Source: Rhodovibrionaceae bacterium (lineage in GTDB: Bacteria > Pseudomonadota > Alphaproteobacteria > Kiloniellales > DSM-21159). Taken from it: 64,000 nucleotides of DNA. Both the position numbers and the translations under genes were made by a program. The stretch covers positions 1 through 64,000 of the forward strand of contig JANQMX010000023.1 of the NCBI GenBank assembly GCA_028279885.1. The letters run 5' to 3'. Under the pieces are notes generated by a model. That model was not told where the DNA came from. It worked only from the letters and a program-made list of their open reading frames with translations, and searched no databases. Numbering within the stretch: the first letter of the stretch is position 1; the number at the start of each line of letters is the position of its first letter. This document shows, piece by piece, positions 21,115-38,265 of this stretch.

Positions 21115-21151
21115 CCTAGCGGCTCGACCGCCAGCCCTTTCCCGGATCCCC

Positions 21152-22087
21152 GTGGACCTCCTCACCCTTATCCTGCTCTCCGCTTCGGCGGCTGCCGTTG
21201 CGGCAGCCCTCTGGCTGTGGACGCCGGACAAGCGCCGGGCCGTCTTGGAGCGCGACTACCTGCGGAGCCCCGCCGATAAGCTCGACGTCGGCGGCACGAC
21301 GCTGCACCTGCGCGACGAGGGCCCGCCGACCGCACCGCCCGTTATCCTGCTGCACGGCTTCGGCGCCAGCCTGCACAGCTGGGAGCCTTGGGTCCGCGCC
21401 CTGTCGCGCGACCACCGGGTGATCTCGCTGGATCTGCCCGGCTGTGGCCTGTCGCCGCCCGACCCTGACGGCGACTACAGCGACGGACGCGTCGTGCGGC
21501 TCCTGCTGGCGCTGCTTGAGCAGAAGGGCATCGCGCGGGCCAGCATCATCGGTCATTCGATCGGCGGCCGCATCGCCTGGCGACTGGCGGCCGAGCACCC
21601 TGAGCGCGTCGAGAAGCTCGTGCTGATCGCGCCCGACGGCTTTGCCAGCCCCGGCTTCGAATACGGCGTGGCACCCAAGGTGCCGGCGATGATGTCCTTG
21701 ATGCGCCACATCCTGCCCAAGCCGCTGCTGCGCGCCAATCTGGTGCAGAGCTACGGCGACCCGGCGGCGCTGACCCGCGCCAACCTCGATCGCTACCATG
21801 ACCTGATGCTGGCGCCCGGCAACCGTCGCGCCCTGCTCGACCGCATGGCGCAGACCGTGCTGACCGACCCGCAACCGGCGCTGGAGCGGATCGCGGCACC
21901 GGTCCTGCTGCTGTGGGGCGAGAAGGATGCGCTGATCCCCTTCGACAACGCGCAGGACTATCTCCGCCACCTGCCCGATGCGCGGCTCGTATCGTTCCCC
22001 AAGCTCGGTCACTTGCCACAGGAGGAGGCGCCGGAGGAGACGCTGCCGCCGGTCGCCGCGTTCCTGTCGACGCCTCAATCGACCTAA
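21152..22087 (+). CDS. alpha/beta hydrolase, N-terminally membrane-anchored
   Basis: A 311-aa protein from GTG 21152, giving VDLLTLILLSASAAAVAAAL, a clear N-terminal anchor. The oxyanion loop is LLHGFGASLHSW, the nucleophile elbow IIGHSIGGRIAWRLA (Ser), the acid WGEKDALIPF and the catalytic His LGHLPQEEAPE, a complete Ser-Asp-His triad. It is similar to carboxylesterase/lipase and C-C hydrolase-like members; the substrate cannot be stated. The frame is open further upstream over the HAD gene end, but only the region from 21152 is family-like. Confidence 0.88.
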   Translation: MDLLTLILLSASAAAVAAALWLWTPDKRRAVLERDYLRSPADKLDVGGTTLHLRDEGPPTAPPVILLHGFGASLHSWEPWVRALSRDHRVISLDLPGCGLSPPDPDGDYSDGRVVRLLLALLEQKGIARASIIGHSIGGRIAWRLAAEHPERVEKLVLIAPDGFASPGFEYGVAPKVPAMMSLMRHILPKPLLRANLVQSYGDPAALTRANLDRYHDLMLAPGNRRALLDRMAQTVLTDPQPALERIAAPVLLLWGEKDALIPFDNAQDYLRHLPDARLVSFPKLGHLPQEEAPEETLPPVAAFLSTPQST

Positions 22088-22214
22088 CCAACCTAGAGAG
22101 GGCGGGCCTGGGCCAGGGTTCCGACGCCATCACTTCACTCGCCGGTGAATTGACCTAACTGCCGTGTGGATACAAGGCTGTTGATCGCCGTAACACACAG
22201 GCGAGAGACGGCCT

Positions 22215-22242
22215 CCGTTGTGAGATCCTCATCACACAACGG
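22215..22242. promoter_or_regulatory. inverted repeat upstream of the second RND operon
   Basis: CCGTTGTG (22215-22222) and CACAACGG (22235-22242) form a perfect 8-bp inverted repeat with a 12-nt centre. It lies 113 bp before the adaptor start, suiting either a regulator site or a hairpin ending the hydrolase transcript. The gap 22088-22354 contains no supported gene. Confidence 0.45.
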
Positions 22243-22354
22243 CCGTGTTTGGCTTGATGTTCGTGTACCGCGACGACAGCTCAAAAAAGCTGTTCCAAAA
22301 GTGTTGGCGGAGCCCTTCCAGCCCTCCGACACACAGGCTGTGGAGAGGCTGTGA

Positions 22355-23476
22355 ATGACGACGCCCCAGAGCATCGACAGGGCTATCGATAGGGCTTGGC
22401 GTGCGGCACTGATCGTCCCACTGCTGCTGGCCGTCTTGGCGTCAGCCGCGCAGGGCCAGAGCCAGGGCGAAGGGGCCCGTCCCGCCGCACCCGTCATCGT
22501 CGCGCCGGCGCAACGCGGCGAGATGGTCGATCGCATCAACGCTTTGGGCACCACGCGGGCGAACGAAAGCGTGCGCGTCACCGCCAGCGTGACCGAGACC
22601 GTGCAAGAGCTTCGCTTCGACGACGGCCAGGCGGTCGAGGCCGGCGAGGTCCTGGTCGTGCTCAACAAGGCCGAGGAAGAAGCCGATCTGCGCGCCGCCG
22701 AGGCCATCCTCGCCGAGCGCCGCCTGGCCTTCGAGCGAGCGCAGGAGCTGGAGAGCCGGCGGTTTACGGCCACCGCGCAGCTCGACGAGCGACGCGCGGC
22801 ACTGCTGGAGGCGGAGGCGGCGATCGAAGCCGTCCGGGCCCGCATCGCAAATCGCATCATCCGCGCACCCTTCGGTGGCGTCGTCGGCCTGCGCGACATC
22901 AGCCTGGGGGCTTTGGTGGCGCCGGGTGATCTGATTACCACCCTGGACGACGTCAGCGTCATCAAGCTCGATTTCTCGGTGCCCGCGGTCTTCTTGCCGG
23001 CGCTCCGGCCCGGGCTGCCGATCGTCGCAAAAGCCTCCGCCTTTGGGGGCCAAGCGTTCACCGGCGAGATCGGCAGCATCGGCTCCCGTGTCGACCCGAC
23101 GACCCGCTCGATCATGGCCCGTGCCCTGATCCCCAATGCCGAGGGGACCCTGAAGCCGGGTCTGCTGATGACCGTCGAACTGCTGAAGAACGCGCGCCAG
23201 GCGATCATCGTGCCGGAGGAGGCCCTGATCCCACGCGGTCGTCAGACGCAGGTCCTGGTCGTCGACCCCGAAACCAGCACGGCCGAAAGCCGCGACGTGG
23301 AGGTCGGCGCCCGCCGGCCCGGCGCGGTCGAGATCCTCGCCGGGCTGGAGGAAGGGGAGCTGGTCGTGACCCACGGCACGCAGCGGGTGGCGCCGGGCCA
23401 GGCGGTCACCATCACGGCGGTGGAGAGCGGTAGCGAGCCCCTGAGCCAGTTGCTCGACGACGCGGCAGAGGGCTAG
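22355..23476 (+). CDS. RND efflux periplasmic adaptor (HlyD/AcrA family)
   Basis: A 373-aa membrane-fusion protein. A signal peptide core (LIVPLLLAVLASAAQGQ) leads to the mature part beginning near QSQGEGARPAAP. RINALGTTRANESVRVTAS and VQELRFDDGQAVEAGEVLVV form the first lipoyl half, an alpha-hairpin of about 70 residues follows (AEEEADLRAAEAILAERRLA), then IIRAPFGGVVGLRDISLGAL and beta-barrel segments. It ends 2 bp before the permease start, a clear operon. It should bridge the permease of the next gene to a TolC-like channel. Confidence 0.93.
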   Translation: MTTPQSIDRAIDRAWRAALIVPLLLAVLASAAQGQSQGEGARPAAPVIVAPAQRGEMVDRINALGTTRANESVRVTASVTETVQELRFDDGQAVEAGEVLVVLNKAEEEADLRAAEAILAERRLAFERAQELESRRFTATAQLDERRAALLEAEAAIEAVRARIANRIIRAPFGGVVGLRDISLGALVAPGDLITTLDDVSVIKLDFSVPAVFLPALRPGLPIVAKASAFGGQAFTGEIGSIGSRVDPTTRSIMARALIPNAEGTLKPGLLMTVELLKNARQAIIVPEEALIPRGRQTQVLVVDPETSTAESRDVEVGARRPGAVEILAGLEEGELVVTHGTQRVAPGQAVTITAVESGSEPLSQLLDDAAEG

Positions 23477-23478
23477 CC

Positions 23479-26400
23479 GTGCTGCTCTCCGATGTCTCGG
23501 TAAAGCGGCCGGTCTTCGCCTCGGTGATCAGTCTTTTGCTGTTGGCCTTCGGCTTCGTCGCCTTCGACCGCTTGCCGCTGCGCGAGTACCCGGACATCGA
23601 CCCGCCGATCGTCTCGATCGAGACCGTCTATCCCGGCGCAGCCGCCAGCGTCGTCGAGACCCGCATCACCGAGATCATCGAAGACCGCATCGCCGGGATC
23701 GAGGCCATCCGCTCGATCGAGTCGCGCAGCGAGGACGGCCGCTCTCTGATCGACATCGAGTTCAACATCGGGCGTGACGTCGATGCCGCGGCCAACGATG
23801 TGCGCGACCGCGTCTCCGGCGTTCTCGACGATCTGCCGGACGAAGCCGACCCGCCGGAGATCAGCAAGGTCGATTCCAACGACGACGTGATCATGTGGCT
23901 CAACCTGGTCAGCGACCGGCATTCCGTGCTCGAGCTGACCGACTATGCGGAGCGCTTCCTGACCGACCGCTTTTCCGCGCTGGACGGCGTCGCCCGCGTG
24001 CGGATCGGCGGCGGGCTGAGCCAAGCCATGCGGGTTTGGCTGGACCGCGAGGCGCTGGCCGCCCGCGGCCTGACGGTCAGCGACGTCGAGGAGGCGCTGC
24101 GCGCCGACAACGTCGAGCTGCCGGCCGGCAGCATCGAATCCCTGGAACGGCAGTTCACCGTGCGGGTCGAGCGCAGCTTCCTGTCGGCCGACGACTTCGC
24201 GCAGCTTGTCTTGGGCCGCAGCGACGACGGCTTTCTGCTGCGCCTGGGCGACGTCGCCCGGGTCGAACAGGGCGCCGTCGAAGAGCGCACCTTCTTTCGC
24301 GGCAACGGCGTGCCCATGGTCGGCATCGGCATCATCCGGCAGTCGCAGGCCAACACGCTGGCGGTGGCCCAGGTCGCGCGCGACGAGGCCGCGCGCCTCA
24401 ACGGCAACCTGCCCGACGGCATGGAGATCCGGCAGAGCTTCGACACCAGCGTGTTCATCCAGGGTGCGATCAACGAGGTCTACAAGACCCTGTTCATCGC
24501 CATCGGCCTGGTGGTGCTGGTCATCTACCTCTTCCTGGGCAGCGTCCGAGCCATGCTGGTGCCGGCGGTGGTGGTGCCGGTCTCCCTGGTCGCCACCTTC
24601 ATTGCGCTCTACGCCCTCGGCTTCTCGATCAACCTCCTGACCCTTCTGGCGCTGGTGCTGGCCATCGGACTGGTGGTGGACGATGCCATCGTCGTGCTCG
24701 AAAACATCCATCGGCGCATCGAGTCCGGCGAGAGCCCGCTGGTCGCCGCCTTCAAGGGGACGCGGCAGGTCGGCTTCGCGGTGATCGCGACGACCGTCGT
24801 ACTGATCTCTGTCTTCGTACCGCTGGCCTTTCTGGAGGGCGATGTCGGGCGGCTGTTCTCGGAGTTTGCCCTGACCATGGCCGCCGCGGTGGCCTTTTCC
24901 AGTATCGTCGCCTTGTCCCTCTCCTCCATGCTGGCCTCGAAGGTCTTGCAGCCGACCAAGCGGCGGACGCTGATCGCACGCCTTGTCGAGCGGGGCTTCG
25001 CCGCTGTCGAGCGCGGCTACCGCAGCGCCCTGGCGGGCGCGCTGCGACGGCCGTCTGTCGTCGCCGTCCTGTTTCTTTTGGTGCTGGGGAGCGCCGCCTG
25101 GCTGTTCCGCGAGATCCCCAGCGAGTACGCACCCAAGGAAGACCGGGGCGCCTTCTTCATCCTGGTGAACGGCCCCGAGGGCGCGTCCTTCAGCTATATG
25201 ACCGAGTACATGGACGAGATCGAGCGGCGGCTCACGCCGTTGGTCGAAAACGGCGAGGTCACCCGGCTGCTCATCCGCGCGCCCCGGGCCTTCAGCAACC
25301 TGGAGACCTTCAATACCGGGATCGGCATCCTGGTGCTGAACGACTGGGCCGTGCGCCGCTCGGGCTGGGAGATCATGGACGAGGTGCGCAGGCTCACCGC
25401 CGACCTGCCCGGCGTGCGCGCCTTCCCGGTGATGCGCCAGGGCTTCGGCGGAGGCATCCAGAAACCGGTGCAGTTCGTGATCGGCGGCGGAACCTACGCC
25501 GAGCTGGCCGAGTGGCGCGACATCCTGCTGGCCCGGCTGGCCGAGGACAATCCGGGGCTGGTCGGCATCGACCACGACTACAAGGAAACCAACCCCCAGC
25601 TCCGGGTCGAGATCGACCGCGACCGGGCCGGCGACCTCGGGGTCACCATCGGCAACATCGGCCGCACTCTGGAGACCATGCTGGGCTCGCGCCGGGTCAC
25701 CACCTACATCGATGCCGGCGAGGAATACGACGTGATCCTGGAGGGCGAGCGGGACGCGCAGCGGACCCCGACCGACATCCACAACGTCTATGTCCGCTCG
25801 GAGCGCTCCGGCCAGCTCATCCCGCTCTCCAACCTGGTGACCCTGGAGAACTTCGCCGACTCCGCCACGCTCAACCGCTACAACCGCACCCGGGCGATCA
25901 CCATCGAGGCCAATCTGGCGCCCGGCTACACCCTGGGCGAGGCCCTGGCGCATCTGGAAGCGCTGGTCGACGCCCATCTGCCGGACACGGTGGTGATCGA
26001 CTACAAAGGAGAATCGCTGGACCTCAAGACCAGCAGCGGCTCCCTGCTCTTCGTCTTCCTGCTCGGGATCGCCGTGGTCTTCCTGGTTTTGGCGGCGCAG
26101 TTCGAAAGCTACCTGCATCCCCTGGTGATCATGCTGACGGTGCCGCTCGCCATAACAGGGGCCCTGCTGGGCCTCTACCTGACCGGCGGCACGCTGAACA
26201 TCTACAGCCAGATCGGCCTGATCATGCTGGTGGGCCTGGCGGCCAAGAACGGCATCCTGATCGTCGAATTCATCAACCAGAGGCGCGACGAGGGCATGGC
26301 CTTCGACCGCGCCGTCATCGAGGCTTCGGTTACCCGCCTGCGCCCCATCGTCATGACCGGCATCACGACGGCGGCCGGCTCGGTTCCCTTGATCCTGGCT

Positions 26401-26628
26401 TTCGGGGCCGGCGCCGAGACCCGCACCGTGATCGGCACCGTCGTCTTCTCCGGCGTGCTGGCGGCGACGCTCTTCACCCTCTTCGTCGTGCCGGTGGCCT
26501 ACAGCGCCCTCGCCCGGCGGACCGGGTCACCCGGCGACGTGGCGCAAAAGCTCGAAGCCGAGATGCAGGCCCAGCCGCCGGCGCGGCACGGCACGCCGCT
26601 CGCGACCGACTCCTCGCCGGCCGAGTAA
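23479..26628 (+). CDS. RND-family efflux permease
   Basis: A 1049-aa inner-membrane antiporter starting with GTG 23479 (LLSDVSVKRPVFASVISLLL). TM4 has GLVVDDAIVVLENIHRR with the proton-relay aspartates and TM10 has GLAAKNGILIVEFINQRRD with the lysine. Periplasmic porter motifs such as YKETNPQLRVEIDRDRAGDL are in place. The C-terminus ends with a 35-residue soluble tail. It belongs to the same superfamily as the first RND pump but is clearly divergent, so the two operons are not a recent duplication. The substrate is unknown. Confidence 0.95.
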   Translation: MLLSDVSVKRPVFASVISLLLLAFGFVAFDRLPLREYPDIDPPIVSIETVYPGAAASVVETRITEIIEDRIAGIEAIRSIESRSEDGRSLIDIEFNIGRDVDAAANDVRDRVSGVLDDLPDEADPPEISKVDSNDDVIMWLNLVSDRHSVLELTDYAERFLTDRFSALDGVARVRIGGGLSQAMRVWLDREALAARGLTVSDVEEALRADNVELPAGSIESLERQFTVRVERSFLSADDFAQLVLGRSDDGFLLRLGDVARVEQGAVEERTFFRGNGVPMVGIGIIRQSQANTLAVAQVARDEAARLNGNLPDGMEIRQSFDTSVFIQGAINEVYKTLFIAIGLVVLVIYLFLGSVRAMLVPAVVVPVSLVATFIALYALGFSINLLTLLALVLAIGLVVDDAIVVLENIHRRIESGESPLVAAFKGTRQVGFAVIATTVVLISVFVPLAFLEGDVGRLFSEFALTMAAAVAFSSIVALSLSSMLASKVLQPTKRRTLIARLVERGFAAVERGYRSALAGALRRPSVVAVLFLLVLGSAAWLFREIPSEYAPKEDRGAFFILVNGPEGASFSYMTEYMDEIERRLTPLVENGEVTRLLIRAPRAFSNLETFNTGIGILVLNDWAVRRSGWEIMDEVRRLTADLPGVRAFPVMRQGFGGGIQKPVQFVIGGGTYAELAEWRDILLARLAEDNPGLVGIDHDYKETNPQLRVEIDRDRAGDLGVTIGNIGRTLETMLGSRRVTTYIDAGEEYDVILEGERDAQRTPTDIHNVYVRSERSGQLIPLSNLVTLENFADSATLNRYNRTRAITIEANLAPGYTLGEALAHLEALVDAHLPDTVVIDYKGESLDLKTSSGSLLFVFLLGIAVVFLVLAAQFESYLHPLVIMLTVPLAITGALLGLYLTGGTLNIYSQIGLIMLVGLAAKNGILIVEFINQRRDEGMAFDRAVIEASVTRLRPIVMTGITTAAGSVPLILAFGAGAETRTVIGTVVFSGVLAATLFTLFVVPVAYSALARRTGSPGDVAQKLEAEMQAQPPARHGTPLATDSSPAE

Positions 26629-26780
26629 GCCGACCGGCAGGAATGCGCCCTCGGCATCCGCCTATGGAGCTTGAACGGGCCGACGCGACAGCCGGCCGCA
26701 GCCGCCCAGCACGGCGTATCCTTGCCTGGCGGGCGCGCATCATGACGGTGTAGCTGTCTCCAATCGCGGAATCCTTTTTC

Positions 26781-28049
26781 ATGGCTCAAGAGCATCATGT
26801 CGTCGTGGTCGGCGGGGGCTTCGCCGGGCTGGCCTGCATCAGGGGCCTGCGCGGCGCCAAGGTGAAGATCACCCTGATCGACCAGCGCAACCACCATCTC
26901 TTTCAGCCGCTGCTCTATCAGGTCGCCACCACCATCCTGCCGACCTCCGAGATCGCCTGGCCGCTGCGCCGGCTGTTCAAGGAGCGGCCGGAAGTCACCA
27001 CCCTGATGGCGACGGTCTCGGGTGTCGATTGCCACAGCAAGGAGATCGTTTTCGCCGACGGGAGCCGAATGAGCTTCGACACGCTGGTCCTCGCCACCGG
27101 GGCGCGCCATTCCTATTTCGGCCGCGACGAGTGGGAGGCTCATGCGCCCGGGCTGAAGACGCTGGAAGACGCCACCACCATCCGGCGCCGGATCCTCTCC
27201 GCCTTCGAGCGCGCCGAGTGGTGCGACGATCCCAACGAACGCGAGGCCTGCCTGACCTTCGCCGTGATCGGCGCCGGACCGACCGGTGTGGAGCTTGCCG
27301 GCATCATCGCCGAGCTGGCCCGGCGGGTGCTGCCGCCGGAGTTCCGGCGCATCGACACGGCCAAGGCGCGCGTCCTCCTGATCGAAGCCGGGCCGCGCGT
27401 GCTGCCCGCCTTTCCAGAGAAGCTCGCCCGCTACGCCGAACGTGCTCTCGTCAAGCTGGGCGTGGAGGTCATCACCGACCGGCCGGTCACCGCCTGCGAC
27501 GGCGGGGGCGTTGTTGTCGGCGATGAACGCATTGCCGCGAAGACGACCATCTGGGCGGCCGGGGTGATGGCCTCGAAGGCCGCGCAGTGGCTCGGCGCCG
27601 AGGCGGACCGGGCGGGCCGGGTCATCGTCGCGCCCGACCTGACCGCGCCCGGACACCCGGACATCTTCGTGATCGGCGACACAGCGGCGGTGACGGATGC
27701 CGCGGACAAGCCGGTGCCGGGCATCGCGCCGGCCGCCAAGCAGCAGGGGGCCTACGTCGCCCGGGTTATCCGGCAGCGCCTCGCCGGCGAACCGTCAGAT
27801 GCGCCTTTCCGCTATCGCCATGCCGGCAATCTCGCCACCGTCGGCCGCAGCGCGGCGGTCGTCGACTTCGGCCGGTTGCAGCTCACCGGCGCCCTGGCCT
27901 GGTGGTTCTGGGGGCTGGCGCACATCTACTTCCTGATCGGCACGCGCAGCCGCCTCGCCGTCGCCTACAGCTGGCTCTGGTCCTACCTGACCGGGCAGAA
28001 GAGCGCCCGCCTGATCACCCAGGGCTCGGCTGCGTCGAGCCAGAAGTAG
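26781..28049 (+). CDS. ndh: type II NADH dehydrogenase (NDH-2)
   Basis: A 422-aa single-subunit, non-proton-pumping NADH:quinone oxidoreductase. The FAD-binding motif is VVVGGGFAGLACIRGL, the second Rossmann motif for NADH is FAVIGAGPTGVELAGII, and the FAD motif is GHPDIFVIGDTAAV. AAKQQGAYVARVI and a C-terminal amphipathic/hydrophobic segment (WWFWGLAHIYFLIGTRSRLA) provide membrane association. ATG 26781 is family-typical. The extreme C-terminus SARLITQGSAASSQK is echoed in a decayed copy at 31921-31971, so the 3' end is an insertion boundary for the following 3.9 kb. Confidence 0.93.
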   Translation: MAQEHHVVVVGGGFAGLACIRGLRGAKVKITLIDQRNHHLFQPLLYQVATTILPTSEIAWPLRRLFKERPEVTTLMATVSGVDCHSKEIVFADGSRMSFDTLVLATGARHSYFGRDEWEAHAPGLKTLEDATTIRRRILSAFERAEWCDDPNEREACLTFAVIGAGPTGVELAGIIAELARRVLPPEFRRIDTAKARVLLIEAGPRVLPAFPEKLARYAERALVKLGVEVITDRPVTACDGGGVVVGDERIAAKTTIWAAGVMASKAAQWLGAEADRAGRVIVAPDLTAPGHPDIFVIGDTAAVTDAADKPVPGIAPAAKQQGAYVARVIRQRLAGEPSDAPFRYRHAGNLATVGRSAAVVDFGRLQLTGALAWWFWGLAHIYFLIGTRSRLAVAYSWLWSYLTGQKSARLITQGSAASSQK

Positions 28050-28093
28050 GGAGCTTGTTCACCTGCGGCGCAGTCAACGCCGCCGCCGAAAGG

Positions 28094-28411
28094 TCACAGA
28101 TCGTTCTTCAGATCGAGAAGCGAGACCGCTTCGATTTGCGACTCCGCAATCTTCGACATGGTCTCCAGATGATAGGCGTCGATCTCATGCTTTGAGTTCA
28201 CGAAGGTCTTCTCGATCCATTGCACGTGCGTGAATCAGTGGAAGTAGGGCTCTCCGCCGATCTCGATCTGGAACCAGGACTCCAGGGCGACGCCCTCATC
28301 CACGAGCGTCTTCAGCGCCTCATCCCGTCGGGCAAGCAGGGTGTCGCGCCACTCACCCAGGTCTGTGTCGGAGCCAGGCTTCAGCTTGATCAATCCCGCC
28401 GCCGACTCCAT
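28094..28411 (-). pseudogene. DUF6176-like protein gene interrupted by an in-frame TGA
   Basis: From ATG 28411, behind a textbook AAAGGAGGT ribosome site, 58 codons read MESAAGLIKLKPGSDTDLGE and so on to GGEPYFH, followed by TGA at 28237-28235. The same frame continues as FTHVQWIEKTFVNSKHEIDA and ends SLLDLKNDL with a stop at 28096-28094, for 105 codons in all. The two halves together look like one DUF6176/ABM-type small protein, and the TGA is best explained as a TGG-to-TGA nonsense change. No selenocysteine element was looked for computationally. If translated, the 58-residue N-terminal half would be produced. Confidence 0.7.
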
Positions 28412-28448
28412 GGGACCTCCTTTAAGATGTCTTTCGGGCTGGAGCAAC

Positions 28449-29243
28449 TCAGCCGACAAAGGCCTTCTCGACGACGTAGTCGCCCGGCGCAGCGTTGGAG
28501 CCTTCTCTGAGACCGGCGGCCTCGAGCAGCGCCCGGGTGTCCGAGATCATCGCCATGGAGCCGCAGATCATCACCCGGTCGCCGACCGAGTCGAGACCGA
28601 GAATGCCGAGATCCCGGAAGAGGCGCCCGCTTTCGATCAACCCCGTGATGCGGCCGACGTGTACGTGGTCCTCACGAGTCACGCTGGGGTAATAGGTCAG
28701 CCGAGTGGATGCGATCTCACCGACCAGCGGATCCTGCGGCAGCGCCGCCACCAGATTTGCACCGTACTGCAGATCTTTGACACCGCGGCAGGTGTGGGTG
28801 AGCACGACCTCGTGGAACTTCTCATAGGTCTCCGGATCGCGCACCAGGCTGGCGAAGGGGGCAATGCCGGTGCCGGTGGAGAAGAGGAAAAGCCGGTCGC
28901 CGTGCTTGAGGGCGTCGAGCACCAGCGTCCCGGTCGGCTTGCGCCCCAGGAGCACTTGGTCGCCCGGCTTGACGTGCCGCAGACGCGAGGTCAGCGGGCC
29001 GTCCTTCACCTTGATCGAGAAGAAGTCGAGCCCGTCGTCCCAGGACGGACTGGCGATGGAGTAGGCCCGCAAGATCGGCCGCCCCTCGACGATAAGGCCG
29101 AGCATCACGAACTCGCCGGAGCGGAAGCGGAAGCTGGCGGGACGGGCGACCCGAAGGGAAAACAGCTCATCCGTCCAATGATGCACGCTCTGGACGGGCA
29201 CCTGGACGACCGACTGAGGCAGGACAAGACTCTGAACGCCCAT
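28449..29243 (-). CDS. fpr: ferredoxin/flavodoxin-NADP+ reductase
   Basis: A 264-aa FAD enzyme exchanging electrons between NADPH and ferredoxin or flavodoxin. RAYSIASPSWDD is the FAD-binding RxYS motif, KPGDQVLLGRKPTGTLVLD follows, and LFSTGTGIAPFASLVRD is the NADP-binding GTGxxP loop. The C-terminal CGSMAMISDTRALLEAAG and the end VVEKAFVG match bacterial subclass I FNR. ATG 29243 fits the family; the longer frame to 29330 does not. It sits in the block of redox and metal genes, with a Fur-like repeat 125 bp upstream, suggesting response to iron or oxidative stress (inference). Confidence 0.92.
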   Translation of the reverse strand: MGVQSLVLPQSVVQVPVQSVHHWTDELFSLRVARPASFRFRSGEFVMLGLIVEGRPILRAYSIASPSWDDGLDFFSIKVKDGPLTSRLRHVKPGDQVLLGRKPTGTLVLDALKHGDRLFLFSTGTGIAPFASLVRDPETYEKFHEVVLTHTCRGVKDLQYGANLVAALPQDPLVGEIASTRLTYYPSVTREDHVHVGRITGLIESGRLFRDLGILGLDSVGDRVMICGSMAMISDTRALLEAAGLREGSNAAPGDYVVEKAFVG

Positions 29244-29367
29244 AGGCAATGCTCCTGACAGGCCGTTGGCGGCAAGGCGGCGAGACCATTGGTAGGTCGC
29301 AGGGTGCCGCGAGCCGGCGGGGCCTCGCACCGGGCCGGCCGCCTGACGTCCTAAAGCCTATCGGCCA

Positions 29368-29396
29368 GTATTGCAAATAAAACTCATTCGCAATAC
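29368..29396. promoter_or_regulatory. Fur-like inverted repeat upstream of the FNR gene
   Basis: GTATTGCAAATA (29368-29379) and CATTCGCAATAC (29385-29396) form an inverted repeat with two mismatches across a 5-nt spacer. The 12-mer CATTCGCAATAC is found unchanged at 47544-47555, and a related perfect 7-1-7 palindrome is at 31334-31348. It lies between the FNR gene and the CopD-like gene. Confidence 0.55.
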
Positions 29397-29459
29397 CATT
29401 CTGCGATTATGCCCTGCCCTCGGCCATTCCTCGATTTCAGGCGGCCCGAGCCGGGCGGC

Positions 29460-29900
29460 TCAAACGCCGCCGTAGCGAAACGCGAGGCCGAGCCACACGA
29501 AAGCGAGCGCCAGCGCGGTGACGGCGACGATATGAGCGCCGAGCATCGGCAAGCGCGCCGCATCGAGTCGCGGAATGATGGAGAGCCGCGCATGAACGGC
29601 CAGTCCGATCGTCGCGGCCAGACAGGCGAGCTTCAGGCAAATCGTCAGCGCCACGGGGTCGCTCCAGTCCGTCCAGCTCGCAATCTCCGGCCGCAGCAGA
29701 GAGGCGAGCCAAAGCCCGGTCACGACCTGGACCGCCATGGCGGGCAGCCCGATCCGCTCATAGATGCGCTCGAAGCCGCGCACCAGGTCCGGGTCGCGCT
29801 TCGCCATGGCTTCCGGCAGGAGACTGACGGCGAGCACCAGGTGGCCGCCGACCCAGACGGAGCCGGCGGCGAGATGAAGGAAGAGAAGCGTCTGGTGCAT
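29460..29900 (-). CDS. CopD-like membrane protein (copper resistance/heme-protein family)
   Basis: A 146-aa protein with four predicted helices: LLFLHLAAGSVWVGGHLVLA, GLPAMAVQVVTGLWLASLL, VALTICLKLACLAATIGLAV and MLGAHIVAVTALALAFVWLG. Conserved histidines at the membrane faces (FLHLAAGSVWVGGH, GLAVHARL) fit the CopD domain family, associated with copper uptake/resistance or heme binding. The function is not proven. It may share a minus-strand transcript with the FNR gene. It is divergent from the exported protein gene at 29985. Confidence 0.7.
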   Translation of the reverse strand: MHQTLLFLHLAAGSVWVGGHLVLAVSLLPEAMAKRDPDLVRGFERIYERIGLPAMAVQVVTGLWLASLLRPEIASWTDWSDPVALTICLKLACLAATIGLAVHARLSIIPRLDAARLPMLGAHIVAVTALALAFVWLGLAFRYGGV

Positions 29901-29984
29901 CGGTGGCTAGGGCGCTGGACTCTCGCCCGTCGAATTGGGCGTCTTTGCGTCCGTGGTGTTATCACGGCCGCCCCGCGAACCATA

Positions 29985-30695
29985 ATGCGCGGTCTGAGCC
30001 TGGCCGCCGGCGTGCTCGTCGCCTCGACCGCCGCTGCTGCAGATCTCGAAATCCTGGTGGATCGTAATCCCGAGAGGCTGGAGCTCTTCCTCTCGACCCG
30101 CGCCGAGAACTTCGTGCCCATTTTCGGCTTGCCGCCGGAGCGTCTCGCCGACGAGAGCGGTATCGTGGACTTCCCGTCGCTCCGGAATGGAACATGGGAG
30201 ATTGGCGATGCGCTGTTGAGGGGCGTGCCTGCCGCGCTCGACGGCGGAGCTGTCGCCTTTGAGGCCATGTCGCTGATAGTGCATCCGCTCGACAGCCCAT
30301 TGCCCATGGAGACGCCCTTCGATGCCTTACTGGCGCTCAACGTATGCTCGGTCGAGGAGCCGACAACACCGCTGACGCTCGCCGAGCTGCAAGGCTATGT
30401 CGGATACATCGCTTACGTCGAGGATGCGGTTGGTGCGCTCACGCTCCGGCTGCCGAAGACCGGCCGTGGCGATCTGCACATCACCGTTCGCGAGTTCTGG
30501 GCGGGCGAGGCGAGCGGCCGCTATGAATTGACCGTTCCCGACGGTGGGATTGTGAAGATCGCCGACAGACCACGGCCCTATAGCGCGCTCGCCTTGATAT
30601 TCTTCGTGATCGGCAGCGGTCTTACGGCAGGGGGCACACTGTGCTTGGCGCGCCAAGCGACGCAGCGCCAACCCGCCGGGGCCTCACCGGCCTAG
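29985..30695 (+). CDS. exported protein with C-terminal membrane anchor, unknown function
   Basis: A 236-aa product from ATG 29985. It has a signal peptide MRGLSLAAGVLVASTAAAA, an extracytoplasmic domain of about 165 residues (FVPIFGLPPERLADESGIVD; LQGYVGYIAYVEDAVGALTL), then LALIFFVIGSGLTAGGTLCL as a C-terminal anchor followed by a short cytoplasmic tail. I recognise no family. Its position between a CopD-like gene and a Sel1/pseudoazurin pair suggests a role in metal or redox handling at the membrane, which is inference only. A much longer frame upstream to 29409 overlaps the CopD-like gene and is not real. Confidence 0.7.
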   Translation: MRGLSLAAGVLVASTAAAADLEILVDRNPERLELFLSTRAENFVPIFGLPPERLADESGIVDFPSLRNGTWEIGDALLRGVPAALDGGAVAFEAMSLIVHPLDSPLPMETPFDALLALNVCSVEEPTTPLTLAELQGYVGYIAYVEDAVGALTLRLPKTGRGDLHITVREFWAGEASGRYELTVPDGGIVKIADRPRPYSALALIFFVIGSGLTAGGTLCLARQATQRQPAGASPA

Positions 30696-30703
30696 CCAAG
30701 CAT

Positions 30704-31309
30704 CTAACAGCTCTCCGGGTGTTCGGCGCTCATGTGCGCAAGATAACCTGCCGGAGGATTGAGGCCGAGCATCGCCCCGACCTCATACCAATCCTCTGCA
30801 AGGCAGAGGTCCTGCGGCACGCCATGCATGCCGTACTGATACAACCTGCCCAGAACCACGGCGGACAGTGCGTCACCTTGCGTCACCGCGGATCCGAGCC
30901 AGTAGAGGCCCTCGTCGACACGATCGTCACTTTCTTCGTTGCCGATGAGGAGCATGCCCAGGCCGTGCTGGGCCTCCGCGTGGTCATGTTCCGCTGCAAA
31001 GCGAAGGTACTTCTCCGCAGCCACAAGGTCGTCACCGCCACGAGAATGCAGTGCGAGGAATGTCCCCAAGTGATAGGACGCCTCGGGATCGCCGGCAAAG
31101 GCGGACCGCGCAAGCTCTTCGATAGCGACGCTGACCCGGGTGCGTTCGCCGGTGTCGTCGGTCGGGCCTGCCTCCAGCGCCTGCGGCCATGACAGCAATG
31201 CGGCAACGGCCAGCGGTAGTCCCGGGACGAGGTTACGGAATGGCTGGCAAGTTCTTCGAATAAGCACGTACCACCTCTCAGTTGGCAAATTCCGTGGACA
31301 CCAGAGCAA
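30704..31309 (-). CDS. exported Sel1-repeat (TPR-like) protein
   Basis: A 201-aa protein. A hydrophobic leader LPLAVAALLSWPQALEA precedes Sel1-like repeats: RSAFAGDPEASYHLGTFLAL, HDHAEAQHGLGMLLIGNEES, TQGDALSAVVLGRLYQYG. Such repeats form alpha-solenoids for protein-protein interaction, here predicted periplasmic. The start is uncertain: ATG 31309 gives a long basic leader before the hydrophobic core, and a downstream GTG (V16) is possible. It is convergent with the gene at 29985. A Fur-like palindrome lies about 25 bp upstream. Confidence 0.75.
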   Translation of the reverse strand: MLWCPRNLPTERWYVLIRRTCQPFRNLVPGLPLAVAALLSWPQALEAGPTDDTGERTRVSVAIEELARSAFAGDPEASYHLGTFLALHSRGGDDLVAAEKYLRFAAEHDHAEAQHGLGMLLIGNEESDDRVDEGLYWLGSAVTQGDALSAVVLGRLYQYGMHGVPQDLCLAEDWYEVGAMLGLNPPAGYLAHMSAEHPESC

Positions 31310-31333
31310 TTCTCGTTTAACAGCTTATCGTAC

Positions 31334-31348
31334 TGCGAATGATTCGCA
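31334..31348. promoter_or_regulatory. perfect 7-1-7 Fur-type box upstream of pseudoazurin
   Basis: TGCGAAT-G-ATTCGCA is an exact 15-bp palindrome of the 7-1-7 form typical of Fur-family operators. It lies between the divergent Sel1 and pseudoazurin genes, 25 bp from one and 73 bp from the other. Confidence 0.7.
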
Positions 31349-31420
31349 TTAGCAGATACGGAAGACCTTGGCCAGTCGTTTGGTGCCCGGAAATACGACA
31401 AAATAGTGGAGATATCGAAG

Positions 31421-31903
31421 ATGGCTTTGATTTCGCGAAGAGAAGCCTTGCTGATCGCGGGCGGCCTCGTCTTGGTGCAGCCCTCACTTGCCGTCGCCGC
31501 GGAGCACAGCGTCGAAATGCTGAACAGGCACCCGGACGACAAAAAGAAGCGCAATGTCTTCCTGCCTCGCATCCTGACCGTTCAACCTGGGGACACGGTG
31601 AACTTCGTCACCGTGGATCGGGGGCACAACAGCGCCTCGATCGACGGGATGCTTCCTGAGGGCGCCGAGGAGTGGAAAGGCAAGCTCAGTAAGGACACGG
31701 CCGTTACGTTCGATAAGCCGGGCTACTACGGCTATCTCTGCACGCCCCACTACGCTCTCGGCATGGTCGGGCTGATCATCGTCGAAGGCGACGGCAAGCT
31801 CGCAAATCTGGAAGCGGCGAAAGCGGTCAAGCACCGCGGCCGGGCCAGGGCGGAATTCGAAGAGATTTGGGCTGAGGCGGAAGCGGGCGGCCTCCTGAGC
31901 TGA
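31421..31903 (+). CDS. pseudoazurin-type blue copper protein
   Basis: A 160-aa periplasmic cupredoxin. The N-terminus MALISRREALLIAGGLVLVQ has a twin-arginine-like leader. The mature domain opens EHSVEMLNRHPDDKKKRNVF. The type 1 copper ligands are visible: His in VDRGHNSASIDG, then Cys-His-Met in GYLCTPHYALGM. LTVQPGDTVNFVTVD is characteristic of pseudoazurins, which donate electrons to nitrite or nitrous oxide reductases or replace cytochromes. No denitrification gene is in this window. ATG 31421 is preferred over 31406. The upstream Fur-type box suggests iron-dependent expression. Confidence 0.92.
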   Translation: MALISRREALLIAGGLVLVQPSLAVAAEHSVEMLNRHPDDKKKRNVFLPRILTVQPGDTVNFVTVDRGHNSASIDGMLPEGAEEWKGKLSKDTAVTFDKPGYYGYLCTPHYALGMVGLIIVEGDGKLANLEAAKAVKHRGRARAEFEEIWAEAEAGGLLS

Positions 31904-31971
31904 CCCGTACCGGATCTCAGTACGCCGGCCGGCTGATCACCCAAGGCTCGGCGGCGATCGACCGTCAGTAG
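31903..31971 (+). pseudogene. relic of the NDH-2 gene 3' tail
   Basis: The plus-strand frame reads TRTGSQYAGRLITQGSAAI then DRQ and a stop. The intact NDH-2 C-terminus reads YLTGQKSARLITQGSAASSQ then K and a stop. At DNA level 24 of 27 bases agree between 28008-28034 and 31930-31956. The relic begins at the pseudoazurin stop codon and ends 6 bp before the dabA stop, so it marks the right-hand edge of a 3.85-kb block inserted after NDH-2. Confidence 0.8.
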
Positions 31972-31977
31972 GCCGAG

Positions 31978-34401
31978 TCAGGCCACCGCCTCCAGGCTCG
32001 GCGCGGCCGCCGGCACCTCCAGCGCCTCCCACTCCAGGTCGCCGACATAGCGGTAGGCCAGGCGGCCCTCGGCATCCATGGCGAAGAGGTGCAGCCAGCG
32101 ATTGTCGAACAGCGCGCGCACGCCGTCGTGGCGGCTGAGGATGTCGCTCATCGCCTCGCGCGGCGCCTCGATGCAGACCGACAGGCGCAGCGGGTCATGG
32201 ATGCTTCGCTCGCCGTCGTTCACCGACTGCCAGGGCAGGCCGGCGCGCAGCAGCCCGCCGTTGCCCTCGAAGACGCCGATGCCGCCGACCACGTTGTGCA
32301 GCAGCTTGTTGCCCGAGCCGAAGGTCTGCGGTGCGACGGTGGAGCCGTAGTACTGCAGGCTGATCCAGCTCGCCACCACGACCGGCGCCGTCATAATCAG
32401 CTCCAGCACGCCGAAGCCCTTCTCGCTGTCCTGCTTCCAGTCGTAGTCGTGCAGGAAGGCGCGGCCTTCCAGGCTGCGCCCCGCGGTGCGGCTGCGCGGT
32501 GCGGCGATGAAGGCCTTGCAGCCGGCGAGCGCCCATTCGGGCCGCACCTCGGCCCAATCGCGGGCGCGCTCGGCAATATCGCCTTCGGCGGTAGCGCGCG
32601 GCAGGCGCAAGGCCCGCTCGCCGCGCGTCACCCTGCCGGCCGCATCCAGCCATTGCCCGACCCGCCGGAGGTCCGAGGCATGCTCGGGCGACAGCCGGTC
32701 CCGGTCGTAGAGCGTGACCGCATCGGTGGTGGTGTCGTGCAGCGCGGCAACGAAGAGCGTGTCCTCGGGCACCGCGATGCCGCGGCCGACCAGCCCTTGG
32801 CGCACCTCGGCATCGTTGAGCAGCCCGGCGAGCAGGCGGGCGTTGACCTCACCCGAATAGCCGCCGCAGGCGCCGCAATGCAGCCCGCTGGCATGGGGGT
32901 TGTTGACCACGTTGGCGCCGTGGCCGGCGAGCACCACCACCCGAGCGAAGCCCCGGGTCAGGGACATGGCGCGCAGCACTGTCTCCGCCGCGCCGATGCG
33001 CGTTTCCAGGTCGAGCGCCGGGTCGAAGCGGGGGGCGGGATCGTTGGGCACGGCCATGGGGTTGAGGCCGAGCGCGTCGCGAATCAGCTTGCCGATGTAG
33101 ACCGGCCCCATGGCCTCGACGAAGGCGAAGGAGGAAACGGCGGCGAGCTTGAAGCGCCCCCAGGCCCGCTTGGCACGCGCCGCGTAGCGAGCGGCCAGGT
33201 CGTCGGGCTCGCTGTCCGGAGCGCCGGAGGACGAGGTGACGTTTGGATTGAGCAGCACCGGCAGGCGCAGCTCCTCCACGTCCGAGGCGAAGCGACGATG
33301 CTTGGCGAAGACGCCGAAGAAGCCCGCGAAGCCCAGCGTGCGGATCCCGGGGTCGACGGCTTCGAGCGCGCGGCGGAAGACCTCCGAGCGCACATCGATG
33401 CAGAAGGCCATCTGCAGGGCCGGCCGCGCCTCGTCGCCCTCGGGCGCGGGAGCGGCAAGCGTATCGGCGAGACCGCGCTGAGCGGCGCGCTCGGCGGCTT
33501 CCTGCAGGATCGCATCGACGATCAGCGCGGCGCGCGGCGCGAGCGCGATCTCATGCGCGGCGCGCACCTTGGCCCAGTCGTCGGCGATCGCTGCCTCGTG
33601 CTGCGCGAAGAGGGCCTCTTCCCAGAGCAGGCGGATGGCCAGGAAGTCGGTGATCGTGCTGTCCGACTCCTCGGCCAGCTCGGCGCGCCAGAGCTGATAG
33701 CGGGCGTACTGCGCCCAGCCGCCGAGGGAGAAGAGTAGCTGATGGAAATAGCTCTCGAGCGCATCCTCCCCGAGGCCGAGCCGGAGGACGGACCGAGCGA
33801 TCGCTTCGCCGGGGTTCTGCGGCGCCTCGGCGACGAAGGCGGCGAAGCCGTCGAGTCCCATGATCTCTGGCGTGAGGTCGTGGGTACCGTGGGCGCAGAA
33901 GGCCGACCAAGCGCGCTTGCCGCGCGGGGCCGCCCAAAGCGCCTGGCCCTGGTCGAAATAGCCGCCGGCCCAGGCGCCAAAGCGCTCGGCGATAAGGCCG
34001 GGCCAGTCCATGCCGCTGGCTTCGGCCGCGAGATCAGCGACGCTGGGCAGGGCTTTGGGTTGCGGCTGCGCTTCGGTGGCAGCGGCCTTCAGCGCGGCGA
34101 CGTCGGACGGCGTGTCGGCATGAGGCGAGGCCGCCAGCGCGGCGGCGAGATCGTCCTCTGTGATCTCGCCGGAGGCGATGCGGCCGAGATACCAGTCGCG
34201 CGGCATGGCGATCGGCACGCCGCCGATGCGGCCGAGCCGCGCGCCCGCCTCGGCTAGCGTCTCGCCGGTCTGGCCGAGGTAGGGGTTGACCGCGACATAG
34301 GAGGCGAGCGGCCAGAGCGGCGGAATCTGGCGGGCCGCGGCATCGCCGGCCGCCTCCAGGGCCGAGAGGTCGATGGGCGCAGTCGTGGCGTCGGTCATCA
34401 T
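31978..34401 (-). CDS. dabA: DabA inorganic carbon uptake subunit (DUF2309, carbonic anhydrase-like)
   Basis: Large cytoplasmic subunit of the DAB inorganic-carbon pump, thought to hydrate CO2 vectorially to bicarbonate using the cation-motive force supplied through DabB. The 807-aa protein from ATG 34401 keeps the beta-carbonic-anhydrase-like zinc site: FCIDVRSE (C334, D336), then [10 protein letters not shown] (H494) and [10 protein letters not shown] (C509). The 15-residue H-to-C spacing is that of characterised DabA. The gene follows dabB by 22 bp on the same strand. LysR control is suggested by the divergent regulator at 36106. Confidence 0.94.
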
Positions 34402-34423
34402 GGGTCTTGTCTCCTCTCGGGGG

Positions 34424-35983
34424 TCAGGCGGAGCGGCGGCGGGACCAGTTGCCGACCAGGCGATCGAACACCGCGTTGGCATAGAGGCCGTTCGAGAGAT
34501 GCACGCGCAGGCCGGCGGCGGCCGGGTGATAGGCCCAGAGCGGGAACATGGCCTGGGCTACGGCGACCAGGCCGAAGCTGAACAGGGCCAGGGTCAAGAG
34601 CGCCCATTCGAGCGGCCCCGGCGCGGGGGTCGGCGGCAGGGTGCCGGCGGTCAGCCATTGCGCGCCGGTCTGCAGGGCAAAGTAGCTGACGGAGGCGGCG
34701 ACGGCATAAAGCGCCGTCCGTTGGGTCAGCACCCGCGGCGCCGCATCGGCCAGTCCCTGGGCTATGAGATAGGCAACGCCGAAGATCAGAATGGCGCCGA
34801 GCGCGATGGCCTGCGGCGACTTGCCGTCGAGCCCGAAGACGAAGGCGGTGAAGGCGTAGATCACCAGCGCCAGAAGGAAGGCACGGGCCACCGCCCAGCC
34901 GTTGGGGATGGCAACCGGACCCGGCCGGCGAATGGCCGCCACCAGATCCACCGCCGTGCCGGAAGCCAGGAAGGCGTGCGCCTTGTAGAGCGAATGGGCG
35001 ACGATGTGCAGCAGCGCCAGCGGGAAGAGGGCGAGGCCGCACTGCATGATCATGAAGCCCATCTGGGCGATGGTCGACCAGGCCAGCGAGCTCTTCACCG
35101 CCGGCTGGGCCAGCATGGCGAGCCCGCCGAACAGTGCGGTGAAGCCGCCTACCATGACCAGCACCGCCAGAATACCGGGCGCCAGCAGCATCACGTCGGC
35201 AAAACGAATCAGCAGGAAGCCGCCCGCATTGATCACGCCGGCATGCAGCAGCGCCGAGACCGGCGTCGGCGTCTCCATCACCTCGATCAGCCAACCGTGG
35301 GTCGGGAACTGCGCCGACTTGAGGATGGCGGCGAGCGCCAGCAGGCCGGCCGCCCAGATCGTCCCGGCGGGGGCGACGCCCTCGCGCGCGGCGACGAGGA
35401 TCGACTCGATGTCGGCCGTGCCGTAGCCGAAGAAGAGCAGCAGCGCCGCGCCGATCAAGGCCGCGTCGCCGAGCCGCGAGGTGACGGACTTCTTGCGCGC
35501 CGCCCGCACGGCCTGGATGCGGTCGCGATAGAAGAGAAGCAGCCGATGCAGGCAGAGGCTGGTGGCGATCCAGGCGGCGACCAGATGGAAGAGGTTGCCC
35601 GCCTGGACCAGCAGCAGCACGGCGGCAAGCGTTGCCGCGATCCAGCCGAGGAAGGCGCCCTGGCGCGCTTCGCCGTCGAGATAGGAGCGCAAGTAGCGCA
35701 CCACCACCCAGCCGACGAAGGCGACGAGCACCAGCATGGTGGCGCTCACCGCATCGAGCCGTGACGAGAAGCCGACCTCGCCGATGCCGATGAGCGGCCC
35801 GGTGCCGGACCCTTGTGCGACGACCAGCGCCGCCGCGCCGAGCGCCGCGGCTAGCGCGACCAGGGCCGCGGCTTCGCTAAGCTGAGGGACCAACTGCGGG
35901 CGCTGGCCCGGGCGGGTGAAGGCAAAAGCCGCTGCCAACAGCAGCACGGCGGGCGCGATCAGCGGAACGAGATCGTAGAGCAT
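34424..35983 (-). CDS. dabB: DabB, NuoL/MrpA-like proton-conducting membrane subunit
   Basis: A 519-aa protein with about 13 membrane helices of the proton-conducting antiporter family (complex I NuoL, Mrp). [20 protein letters not shown] with the conserved Lys/His helix, [20 protein letters not shown] and [13 protein letters not shown] are hallmark segments. It pairs with DabA, the gene directly downstream. Starts at ATG 35983 ([20 protein letters not shown]). Other NuoL genes would be in a nuo cluster; the DabA partner makes the DabB call secure. Confidence 0.93.
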
Positions 35984-36083
35984 CGGCAGGTCGTCTCCGG
36001 GGGCGGATCGGGGGGGGCAAATCGAACGCCTCCGGATCTAGGTCTTGCGACGAGTCAAGAAAAATACATTGTTTTTTGCTTTT

Positions 36084-36102
36084 CGTTCTGTTTTCTAGAA
36101 CG
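36084..36102. promoter_or_regulatory. LysR-type box between dabB and its divergent regulator
   Basis: CGTTCT-N7-AGAACG is a perfect inverted repeat containing a T-N11-A core (36087-36099). It ends 3 bp before the regulator ATG, in an AT-rich stretch (36061-36100) otherwise rare here. This is consistent with autoregulation and activation of dabBA. Confidence 0.6.
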
Positions 36103-36105
36103 ATT

Positions 36106-36993
36106 ATGGCCGAGCTGAACTACCACCACCTGCGCTACTTCCAGGTCGTGGCCCATGAGGGCAACCTGACCCGGGCGGCAGCGCGGCTGAACGTGTCGCA
36201 GTCGGCGGTCTCGACCCAGGTCCGCCAGCTCGAGGAGCGGGTCGGCCAAGACCTCTTCGAGCGGCGCGGCCGGGCGCTCCTTCTCACTGAGGCCGGGCGC
36301 ATCGCGCTCGACCACGCCGATGCCATCTTCGCCACCGGGCGGGAGCTGATCGCCACGCTGCAGCAAAGCGGGCGGGCGCGGAAGGCGCTGCGCGTCGGCT
36401 CCCTGGCCACCCTGTCGCGCAACTTTCAGCTGGCCTTCCTGCGCCCGGTGCTGGGCCGGCCGGACGTCGAGGTCATCCTGCGCTCGGGCAGCGCGGTCGA
36501 GCTCTACAGCGCGCTCGGCGCTCTGAATCTCGATCTGGTGCTGACCAACCAGCCGCCGCCCGCCGATGCCTTGACCTCCTTCATCGTGCAGCGCCTGGAC
36601 GAGCAGAGCGTCAGCCTGATCGGCGTGCCCGCGCTCTGCCCGCCAGGTCTGTCCTTGGCCGAGCGCTTGGCCGAGGCGACGCTGGTTCTGCCCACGGCGG
36701 AGAGCGCCCTGCGCATGGGCTTCGATGCCCTGGTCGATCGGCTCGATGTGACGCCGCAGATCGCCGCCGAAGTCGACGACATGGCGATGATGCGTCTCCT
36801 GGCGCGGGAGGGGATCGGCCTCGCCGTGCTGCCGCCGATCGTGGTGCGCGACGAGCTGGCCAGCGGCAGCCTGGTCGAATGCGCCAAGCTGCCCAACCTG
36901 ACCGAGCCCTTCTATGGCGTCACGGTCGAGCGGCGCTTTCCCAACCCGCTCCTCGCCGACCTGCTGCGCGAGAAGCGGGTTGGCTCAGCGTAG
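36106..36993 (+). CDS. LysR-family transcriptional regulator
   Basis: A 295-aa LTTR from ATG 36106. The winged HTH is MAELNYHHLRYFQVVAHEGN then LTRAAARLNVSQSAVSTQVR; the N-terminal form with NYHHLRYF resembles NhaR. The effector domain begins about residue 90 (KALRVGSLATLSRNFQLAFL). It is divergent from dabBA with a T-N11-A box in between, so it probably controls inorganic carbon uptake; the effector is unknown. A frame upstream to 36076 would start within the operator and is not preferred. Confidence 0.9.
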   Translation: MAELNYHHLRYFQVVAHEGNLTRAAARLNVSQSAVSTQVRQLEERVGQDLFERRGRALLLTEAGRIALDHADAIFATGRELIATLQQSGRARKALRVGSLATLSRNFQLAFLRPVLGRPDVEVILRSGSAVELYSALGALNLDLVLTNQPPPADALTSFIVQRLDEQSVSLIGVPALCPPGLSLAERLAEATLVLPTAESALRMGFDALVDRLDVTPQIAAEVDDMAMMRLLAREGIGLAVLPPIVVRDELASGSLVECAKLPNLTEPFYGVTVERRFPNPLLADLLREKRVGSA

Positions 36994-36998
36994 TACCG

Positions 36999-38210
36999 TC
37001 AGACGCGTTGCGCGGCCATCGCTGCCGGGGTGCGGGCGGCGCGGCGCTCCGCCCGGATCAGCCAGACCACCGCCAGGCCGGCGAGGCTGGCGAAGACCAC
37101 GCCGGCGGCAACGAAGCCCATGGGCTCCCAGGCCTCCATGGCGGCACCGAAGGCCGGCGGACCGCCCAAAGTGCCGAGCTGGTAGAGCACCAGGAAGGCG
37201 GCGTTGGCCGAGGCGAGGTCGCGGACCGGCAGCCGCTCGCCCAGGATGGCGAGGCCGAGCGTGTAGTAGGCGCAGGCCACGCCGCCGAGAACGAAGACCG
37301 CCAGCAGAGCCAAGACGGGACTCTCCGCCACCGCGAGGCCGGCAGGCACGGCCAGCGCGATGAAGCCCGCGATCAGCCACAGCATCAGCCGCTCCCGCCG
37401 CATGCGGTCGGCCAGCCAGCCGAACAGGAAGGCGAGCACCACGCCGCCCCAAAGGAAGGCGCTGACCAGATGCAAAGCCGTGTCTGCACTGGCACCCTGG
37501 CGCAGGGAGAAGTTGGGCAGCAGTGCGATGTAGGAATACTCGATGACGCCGGCGACAAGGGCGCCGACCATGCCGATGGGCACGGCGCGGGCGATGGTCA
37601 GAAAGCCACCCGAGGCATGCTCTTCCATGGGCGGTGCCAGGCGCCAGGCCAGCACCAGCGGAATGCTGGCCATGAGCAACGCAACACCACCGAAGACGTA
37701 AGGCGCATGACCGTCCATCGGCAGAAAGCCCAGGGCGATCGGCCCAGCGCCATAGCCGCCGAACAGCGCCACCACATAGAGCGCCAGCACCCGGCCGCGC
37801 GTCTCTTCACTGCTGACGGTGTTGATCCAGGTCTCGCCGAGCAGCCAGGGGAACAGCAGCCCGAGGCCCATCAGAAAGCGCAGGACCATCCAGCCCTCGA
37901 CGCTTTGCCACAGCGGCAGCAGGGCGAAGCCGATCAGCCCCAGCACGCAGCCGCCCGCCATGGCCGGCACGAAGCCGAGGCGGGCCGAGATGCGGGGCGC
38001 GAAGGGCAAGAGCACCAGCGCGGCCAGCGCCGGCATGCCGGCGGCCAGGCCGGTCACCCACGCCGGCGCACCCCAGGCTTCGAAGGTGAGCGAGGTGAGC
38101 GGATAGCCGACGCCGTGCGCCAGCCCGAGAAAGAAGGTCGCCACGACGACGACGGCGATGCCGAGCGCGCGTTCGTTTCGGCTCAGAAAAGAAGTCGAAG
38201 CGGTTGCCAT
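36999..38210 (-). CDS. MFS transporter
   Basis: A 403-aa, 12-helix major facilitator superfamily protein starting MATASTSFLSRNERALG at ATG 38210. Helix 1 is VVVATFFLGLAHGVGYPLTS, and the loop 2-3 region APRISARLGFVPAMAGG is of MFS type. VLALYVVALFGGYGAGPIAL and FLFGWLADRMRRERLM (loop 8-9) are further signatures. It belongs to the YcaD/UMF-like drug and metabolite exporters. It is divergent from a TetR regulator that probably represses it. The terminus overlaps nothing; the LysR gene end is 6 bp away, convergent. Confidence 0.87.
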   Translation of the reverse strand: MATASTSFLSRNERALGIAVVVVATFFLGLAHGVGYPLTSLTFEAWGAPAWVTGLAAGMPALAALVLLPFAPRISARLGFVPAMAGGCVLGLIGFALLPLWQSVEGWMVLRFLMGLGLLFPWLLGETWINTVSSEETRGRVLALYVVALFGGYGAGPIALGFLPMDGHAPYVFGGVALLMASIPLVLAWRLAPPMEEHASGGFLTIARAVPIGMVGALVAGVIEYSYIALLPNFSLRQGASADTALHLVSAFLWGGVVLAFLFGWLADRMRRERLMLWLIAGFIALAVPAGLAVAESPVLALLAVFVLGGVACAYYTLGLAILGERLPVRDLASANAAFLVLYQLGTLGGPPAFGAAMEAWEPMGFVAAGVVFASLAGLAVVWLIRAERRAARTPAAMAAQRV

Positions 38211-38265
38211 GAAGAGTCTCCAGAAAGGTCGCCTGCCTCCCAGGCGCCAGGGCGCTGGAAGCTTG

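Follow-up and report, generated by a model that had tools for sequence, protein, structure and literature searches.

Homology-facilitated illegitimate recombination, in which one end of the incoming DNA pairs by homology, the other is joined without homology, and recipient DNA is lost at the joint, is known in Acinetobacter, S. pneumoniae, P. stutzeri, and E. coli (PMC3240628). The same idea has been applied to Vibrio T6SS immunity arrays and to Rhs loci, where a 3′ end is displaced and the 3′ part of an older gene remains downstream of newly gained DNA (PMC5361080). The alphaproteobacterial locus described here resembles both. Like the former it has a non-homologous joint and, in the proposed course of events, one homologous end and a loss of recipient DNA at the joint, and like the latter it carries an old gene end downstream of other genes. 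Unlike the systems of the first kind, the present case is drawn from genome comparison only, and unlike the Vibrio and Rhs arrays, the tail left behind is short, non-functional, and derived from a respiratory enzyme; nothing points to its having been kept by selection.

A parallel at a type II NADH dehydrogenase (NDH-2) gene itself is found in Ensifer adhaerens Lc04 (locus L078), in which one exported gene stands behind an intact NDH-2 gene and, behind that in turn, a displaced NDH-2 3′ end whose tail differs from the intact one. The displaced end, recorded at 11243–11957 of L078 behind the inserted gene, has the tail KETLRDGQ and an internal deletion of ∼56 nt, and it is an independent scar of the same kind. 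The body of the intact gene shares 91% identity with L105 and 82% with L047; its tail, KETVREKD, is nearer L047-like tails. The extra exported gene has a homologue downstream of NDH-2 in L047 and L051, and the displaced end together with the DNA downstream of it matches L105. From these relatives it can be read almost directly that DNA of a relative paired inside NDH-2 and was joined at its far end without homology, leaving the old tail behind, a case of the homology-facilitated illegitimate recombination described above. The present locus shares the arrangement of intact NDH-2, added DNA, and displaced 3′ end; it differs in that the Ensifer event, a gain of 0.56 kb with no dab genes nearby, has an order readable from close relatives. 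These are two added examples of displaced NDH-2 3′ ends, the Ensifer one well resolved.

Architecture of the Locus

The window is the whole stretch of DNA that was analyzed, 64,000 nt in length, and positions within it are prefixed with w where another genome is discussed. The only same-genus genome for comparison, G001, is a draft that is 88% complete; its contig C181 (locus L147) carries the corresponding region. The features of the locus are collected in Table 1. The contents that the first-pass annotation had assigned to a redox/metal block between NDH-2 and dabA are borne out by family searches, with a DUF6176 fragment, FNR, a CopD domain, an exported protein, a weak Sel1 match, and pseudoazurin. 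The DUF6176 gene is open except for its single stop and has the appearance of a young pseudogene.

Table 1. Features of the locus in window coordinates, with their counterparts in G001 (L147) and other relatives
Feature	Position	Strand	Family match or comparison
HypL, hypothetical gene, left outer neighbor common with G001	19882..20397	+	86–88% aa in L147, there directly convergent with FNR
Left segment absent at the G001 locus (HAD, HlyD, RND, NDH-2, DUF6176 relic)	20405..28447		G001 alignment w20404 to w28448, no gap
NDH-2 (type II NADH dehydrogenase), intact	26781..28049	+	PF07992, PF22366 NDH2_C
DUF6176 relic	28094..28411	−	PF19673; single in-frame TGA 28235–28237; no match in L147
FNR, ferredoxin/flavodoxin-NADP reductase	28449..29243	−	PF00175/PF00970; 96% aa in G001, same locus
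Fur/Irr-like palindrome TATTGCAAATAAAACTCATTCGCAATA, upstream of FNR	29370..29396		27/27 nt kept in G001, spacer 80% identical
CopD-domain membrane protein	29460..29900	−	PF05425; 94% aa in G001
Exported protein (Exp), no family	29985..30695	+	76% aa in G001
Sel1-like repeat protein, exported	30704..31270	−	PF08238 below cut-off; 77% aa in G001
Fur-like palindrome TGCGAATGATTCGCA (plus TTAGCA), Sel1/pseudoazurin divergent spacer	31334..31354		20/21 nt kept in G001, spacer 69% identical
Pseudoazurin	31421..31903	+	TIGR02375 above cut-off; 92% aa in G001
Right segment absent at the G001 locus (NDH-2 tail relic, dabA, dabB, LysR)	31908..36994		G001 alignment stops w31907, resumes w37029
NDH-2 tail relic ...RLITQGSAAIDRQ and stop	31926..31971	+	27/31 nt, equal length to stop
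dabA	31978..34482	−	PF10070, E 3e-259
dabB	34424..35983	−	PF00361/PF00662
LysR regulator, companion of dab in relatives	36076..36993	+	PF00126/PF03466; same order in L123–L126, L182–L190
MFS transporter, right outer neighbor common with G001	36999..38468	−	88% aa in L147

DabA (PF10070) adjoins DabB (Proton_antipo_M), the arrangement by which a DAB inorganic carbon pump is recognized, and the order LysR-dabB-dabA is kept in relatives. On their family assignments, the proteins are predicted to have ordinary roles: NDH-2 would oxidize NADH, DabAB would be an inorganic-carbon uptake pump, and FNR and pseudoazurin would be redox carriers.

A Second NDH-2 3′ End Beside dabA

The intact NDH-2 gene ends in RLITQGSAASSQK and a stop (28008–28049, plus strand; the last 13 codons and the stop). 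A second NDH-2 tail, RLITQGSAAIDRQ and a stop, occupies 31930–31971 and is separated from the dabA stop by 6 nt (31972–31977), the distance given in the first-pass annotation. That annotation also let the relic begin at the pseudoazurin stop codon (31901–31903), which is too early, as homology is detectable only from about 31926, ∼20 nt past it.

The two ends form an ungapped repeat of 31 nt with 27 matches (87%; 28004–28034 versus 31926–31956). Elsewhere in the 64-kb window the next-best match to the 31-mer is 20/31, and shuffling the window 200 times with its dinucleotides preserved gave 24 at best. The 5.6-Mb genome contains the core of the tail at exactly two places, every other place having three mismatches. 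That the second tail merely resembles NDH-2 by chance has the short length of the match in its favor and nothing else, and it is exceedingly improbable given the shuffles, the uniqueness of the pair in the genome, and the agreement in frame and in length to the same stop codon. The tail repeat is a genuine relic and the scar of a recombination event, as had been claimed.

Within the conserved residues RLITQGSAA, the relic and the intact tail differ by three changes, all of them synonymous (p ∼0.03 under drift for three substitutions, or ∼0.09 when a nonsynonymous difference farther upstream is included). At their last four residues the two tails diverge, as NDH-2 orthologues do from one another, and the length to the stop is equal. 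Purely synonymous change in the conserved codons, together with the equal length, speaks for an origin in another NDH-2 allele more than for decay of a copy of the tail now present. Origin of the tail in a different NDH-2 was what the first-pass annotation had named as speaking against its own reading, and the synonymous-only pattern suits it. The relic thus has the look of a remnant of that other allele, stranded where DNA was joined by illegitimate recombination. By implication, some parental haplotype once had an NDH-2 tail facing dabA. A gene-end relic of this kind proves a recombination joint; it does not prove the direction of the event.

The Block in a Congener

Contig C181 of G001 is collinear with the window over w19825–20404, then directly over w28448–31907 (84% nucleotide identity), and then over w37029–45233. 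In C181, ∼100 bp lie between the end of the block at w31907 and the resumption over w37029–38984, from which collinearity runs on to w45233. When the junctions are read directly, homology on the right is placed at the MFS stop, which sets the limit of the dab segment at about w36995. The genes for FNR, CopD, Exp, Sel1, and pseudoazurin stand at the same locus in G001, with the same outer genes (hypothetical and MFS) on either side, and this locus is without w20405–28447 (HAD, HlyD, RND, NDH-2, DUF6176) and w31908 to about w36994 (relic, dabA, dabB, LysR). Searches of G001 for an NDH-2 of the window's kind and for dabA found neither anywhere in the genome, and matches to the left segment elsewhere in it are merely weak RND-family ones. 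The tail relic sits in the dab segment, ∼20 nt inside its start.

Since G001 has the block at the same locus with both flanks missing, the block is probably the resident part of the locus, to which the NDH-2 and dab segments were probably added. The first-pass annotation had the block inserted between NDH-2 and dabA. Of that proposal, the recombination scar and the NDH-2 tail that once faced dabA stand, but the block is already present at the G001 locus. The further claim that a metal/redox module moved as a unit is not supported by a block that lies between the same outer genes in G001, where the flanks are missing, nor with its ordinary composition (see below). The nearest relative thus suggests that a block that looked inserted was probably resident and that its neighbors were gained. 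Two functions, CO2 uptake by a pump and NADH oxidation by an alternative dehydrogenase, seem to have been acquired at this single locus in a lineage-specific manner.

The direction first proposed can be refined as follows: a resident NDH-2 would have been convergent with dabA, and an incoming second NDH-2 allele with DUF6176 and the block would have paired homologously inside NDH-2 and formed an illegitimate joint at its far end, so that the resident tail came to lie beyond the block. One event would then account for the observed succession of intact NDH-2, block, second tail, and dabA, and the Ensifer locus L078 displays this very process. We consider this course rather unlikely but still give it appreciable weight, because L078 shows it to be mechanically possible. 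Against it, the G001 block with the same outer neighbors and no NDH-2 or dab genes would require coincidence or allelic exchange at the same locus, and a donor with NDH-2 followed by the block is absent from 80 NDH-2 loci.

The preferred reading, with a resident block, has its own difficulties. It draws on one congener, an 88%-complete draft in which two deletions are possible. Neither an NDH-2 facing dabA nor the proposed donor order turned up in any genome examined. The synonymous test counts three substitutions, and the fourth difference weakens its p to ∼0.09. Finally, it is odd that NDH-2 sequence is present in both added segments although they lie on opposite sides of the block; this calls for donors of a common type or for several steps.

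The pseudoazurin–MFS spacer of G001 contains ∼60 bp that the window does not have. This speaks against deletion in G001, since simply removing the dab segment from an arrangement like that of the window would not have left them. A hairpin in this spacer was considered as a terminator and dropped, being no stronger than chance (z −0.18).

Wider Relatives and Composition

NDH-2 adjoins dabA in none of the 80 NDH-2 loci and ∼17 dab loci examined, the latter including the dab loci of relatives in the order and nine further ones, nor in any of 37 mostly dab-bearing genomes in which both genes were looked for. The direct convergence that the first-pass annotation proposed to look for in relatives was thus seen in none of those examined. 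Plasmid records contain relatives of NDH-2 and of dabA separately. The full five-gene block, sought through FNR, Exp, pseudoazurin, and the context of relatives, was found elsewhere only in G001; the gene set was seen in only two congeners, at the same locus, and the search for it at an unrelated locus, also proposed at first pass, returned none. Exp has no match at E ≤ 1e-8 in the other 384 sampled genomes of the class. A search outside the genus for the outer genes in synteny found no such genome, and the polarity therefore rests on one relative. In two relatives from the order (L124, 12241–17778; L125, 12824–18993), a HlyD-RND pair directly follows the LysR gene of the dab operon; it is 34–46% identical to the window's pair and lies on the side opposite to the window's RND.

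The GC content of the block is 63.9% against a window mean of 65.5%, so a check of composition does not set it apart from its surroundings as a mobile module. The left segment has 67.5% GC and the dab segment 70.4%; it is the dab segment that is the outlier, the block being ordinary for the window. GC3 is 0.89–0.92 for RND, NDH-2, dabA, dabB, and LysR and 0.70–0.84 for the block. The nearest relatives of NDH-2 are ∼65–71% identical and nearly all from Rhizobiales, and identity within its own order reaches at most 59%. This difference, at most 59% versus ∼70%, suggests that NDH-2 came into the genome by transfer.

The similar GC3 of the two flanks would also fit a duplication, in which a unit from HAD through NDH-2 and dabA to LysR once lay on both sides of the block and each side lost its redundant half, the tail being the last remnant of the right-hand NDH-2. 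This would account for two halves of one apparent unit flanking the block. It takes more steps, however, and there is no dab remnant on the left and no RND remnant on the right; synonymous-only changes in the tail are also unlike the decay of an identical copy, and we regard the duplication as improbable.

Displaced gene 3′ ends are typical of site-specifically integrated islands, and an element integrated into the 3′ end of NDH-2, with the two tails as attL and attR, would fit this pattern. There is no integrase among the block proteins, the limits of the block conserved in G001 (28448–31907) do not match the positions of the tails, and the sole parallel, in Ensifer, has a single exported gene and no integrase, which makes such an element very improbable.

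Proposed Course of Recombination

In the reading with a resident block, the variable site lies between the hypothetical gene (ending at 20397) and the MFS gene (ending at 36999). Its content FNR-CopD-Exp-Sel1-pseudoazurin is found in G001 and would be ancestral. The window lineage would have gained an NDH-2-bearing segment (HAD-HlyD-RND-NDH-2-DUF6176) on one side and dabA-dabB-LysR on the other, both probably through recombination with related genomes. With the dab segment would have come the final codons of the NDH-2 allele that was convergent with dabA in its source, and this source NDH-2 would have been cut at an illegitimate joint beside the pseudoazurin stop, with loss there of ∼60 bp of G001-type spacer. 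The likely mechanism is homology-facilitated illegitimate recombination, with one end paired by homology and the other joined without it. The non-homologous joint is visible beside the pseudoazurin stop, and recipient DNA is missing there if G001 is taken as the recipient state. Taken as a whole, a resident block with NDH-2 and dab segments gained by recombination with related genomes has, in our estimate, about an even chance of being correct. The scar itself is the product of ordinary recombination and a fresh instance of a known process.

A broader notion is that genes are gained repeatedly at the NDH-2 3′ end, where the well-conserved last codons (SARLITQ) would allow foreign DNA to pair and to place new genes downstream. 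Displaced NDH-2 tails would then recur in alphaproteobacteria, the window and Ensifer adhaerens Lc04 being the cases at hand; we think this generalization improbable.

Fur-like Palindromes and Neighboring Stretches

The two Fur-like boxes reported by the first-pass annotation are real palindromes (Table 1). Both are probably functional because they are conserved in G001 far above the surrounding spacers, and FNR and pseudoazurin are probably under an iron regulator. A box similar to the FNR-side one lies upstream of FNR in another genus as well (L148, 3798–3818), a point in favor of the resident-block reading.

Farther to the right, 39034–42063 of the window is 96.7% identical to G001, with neighbors at 90% and a DctM protein at 100%, and is a probable recent exchange between the congeners. 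Additional window-only stretches relative to G001 are found at 10355–12225, 13417–16851, and 18276–19824; the region is a patchwork of genes specific to one lineage, which indicates that gene gain or loss is common here.
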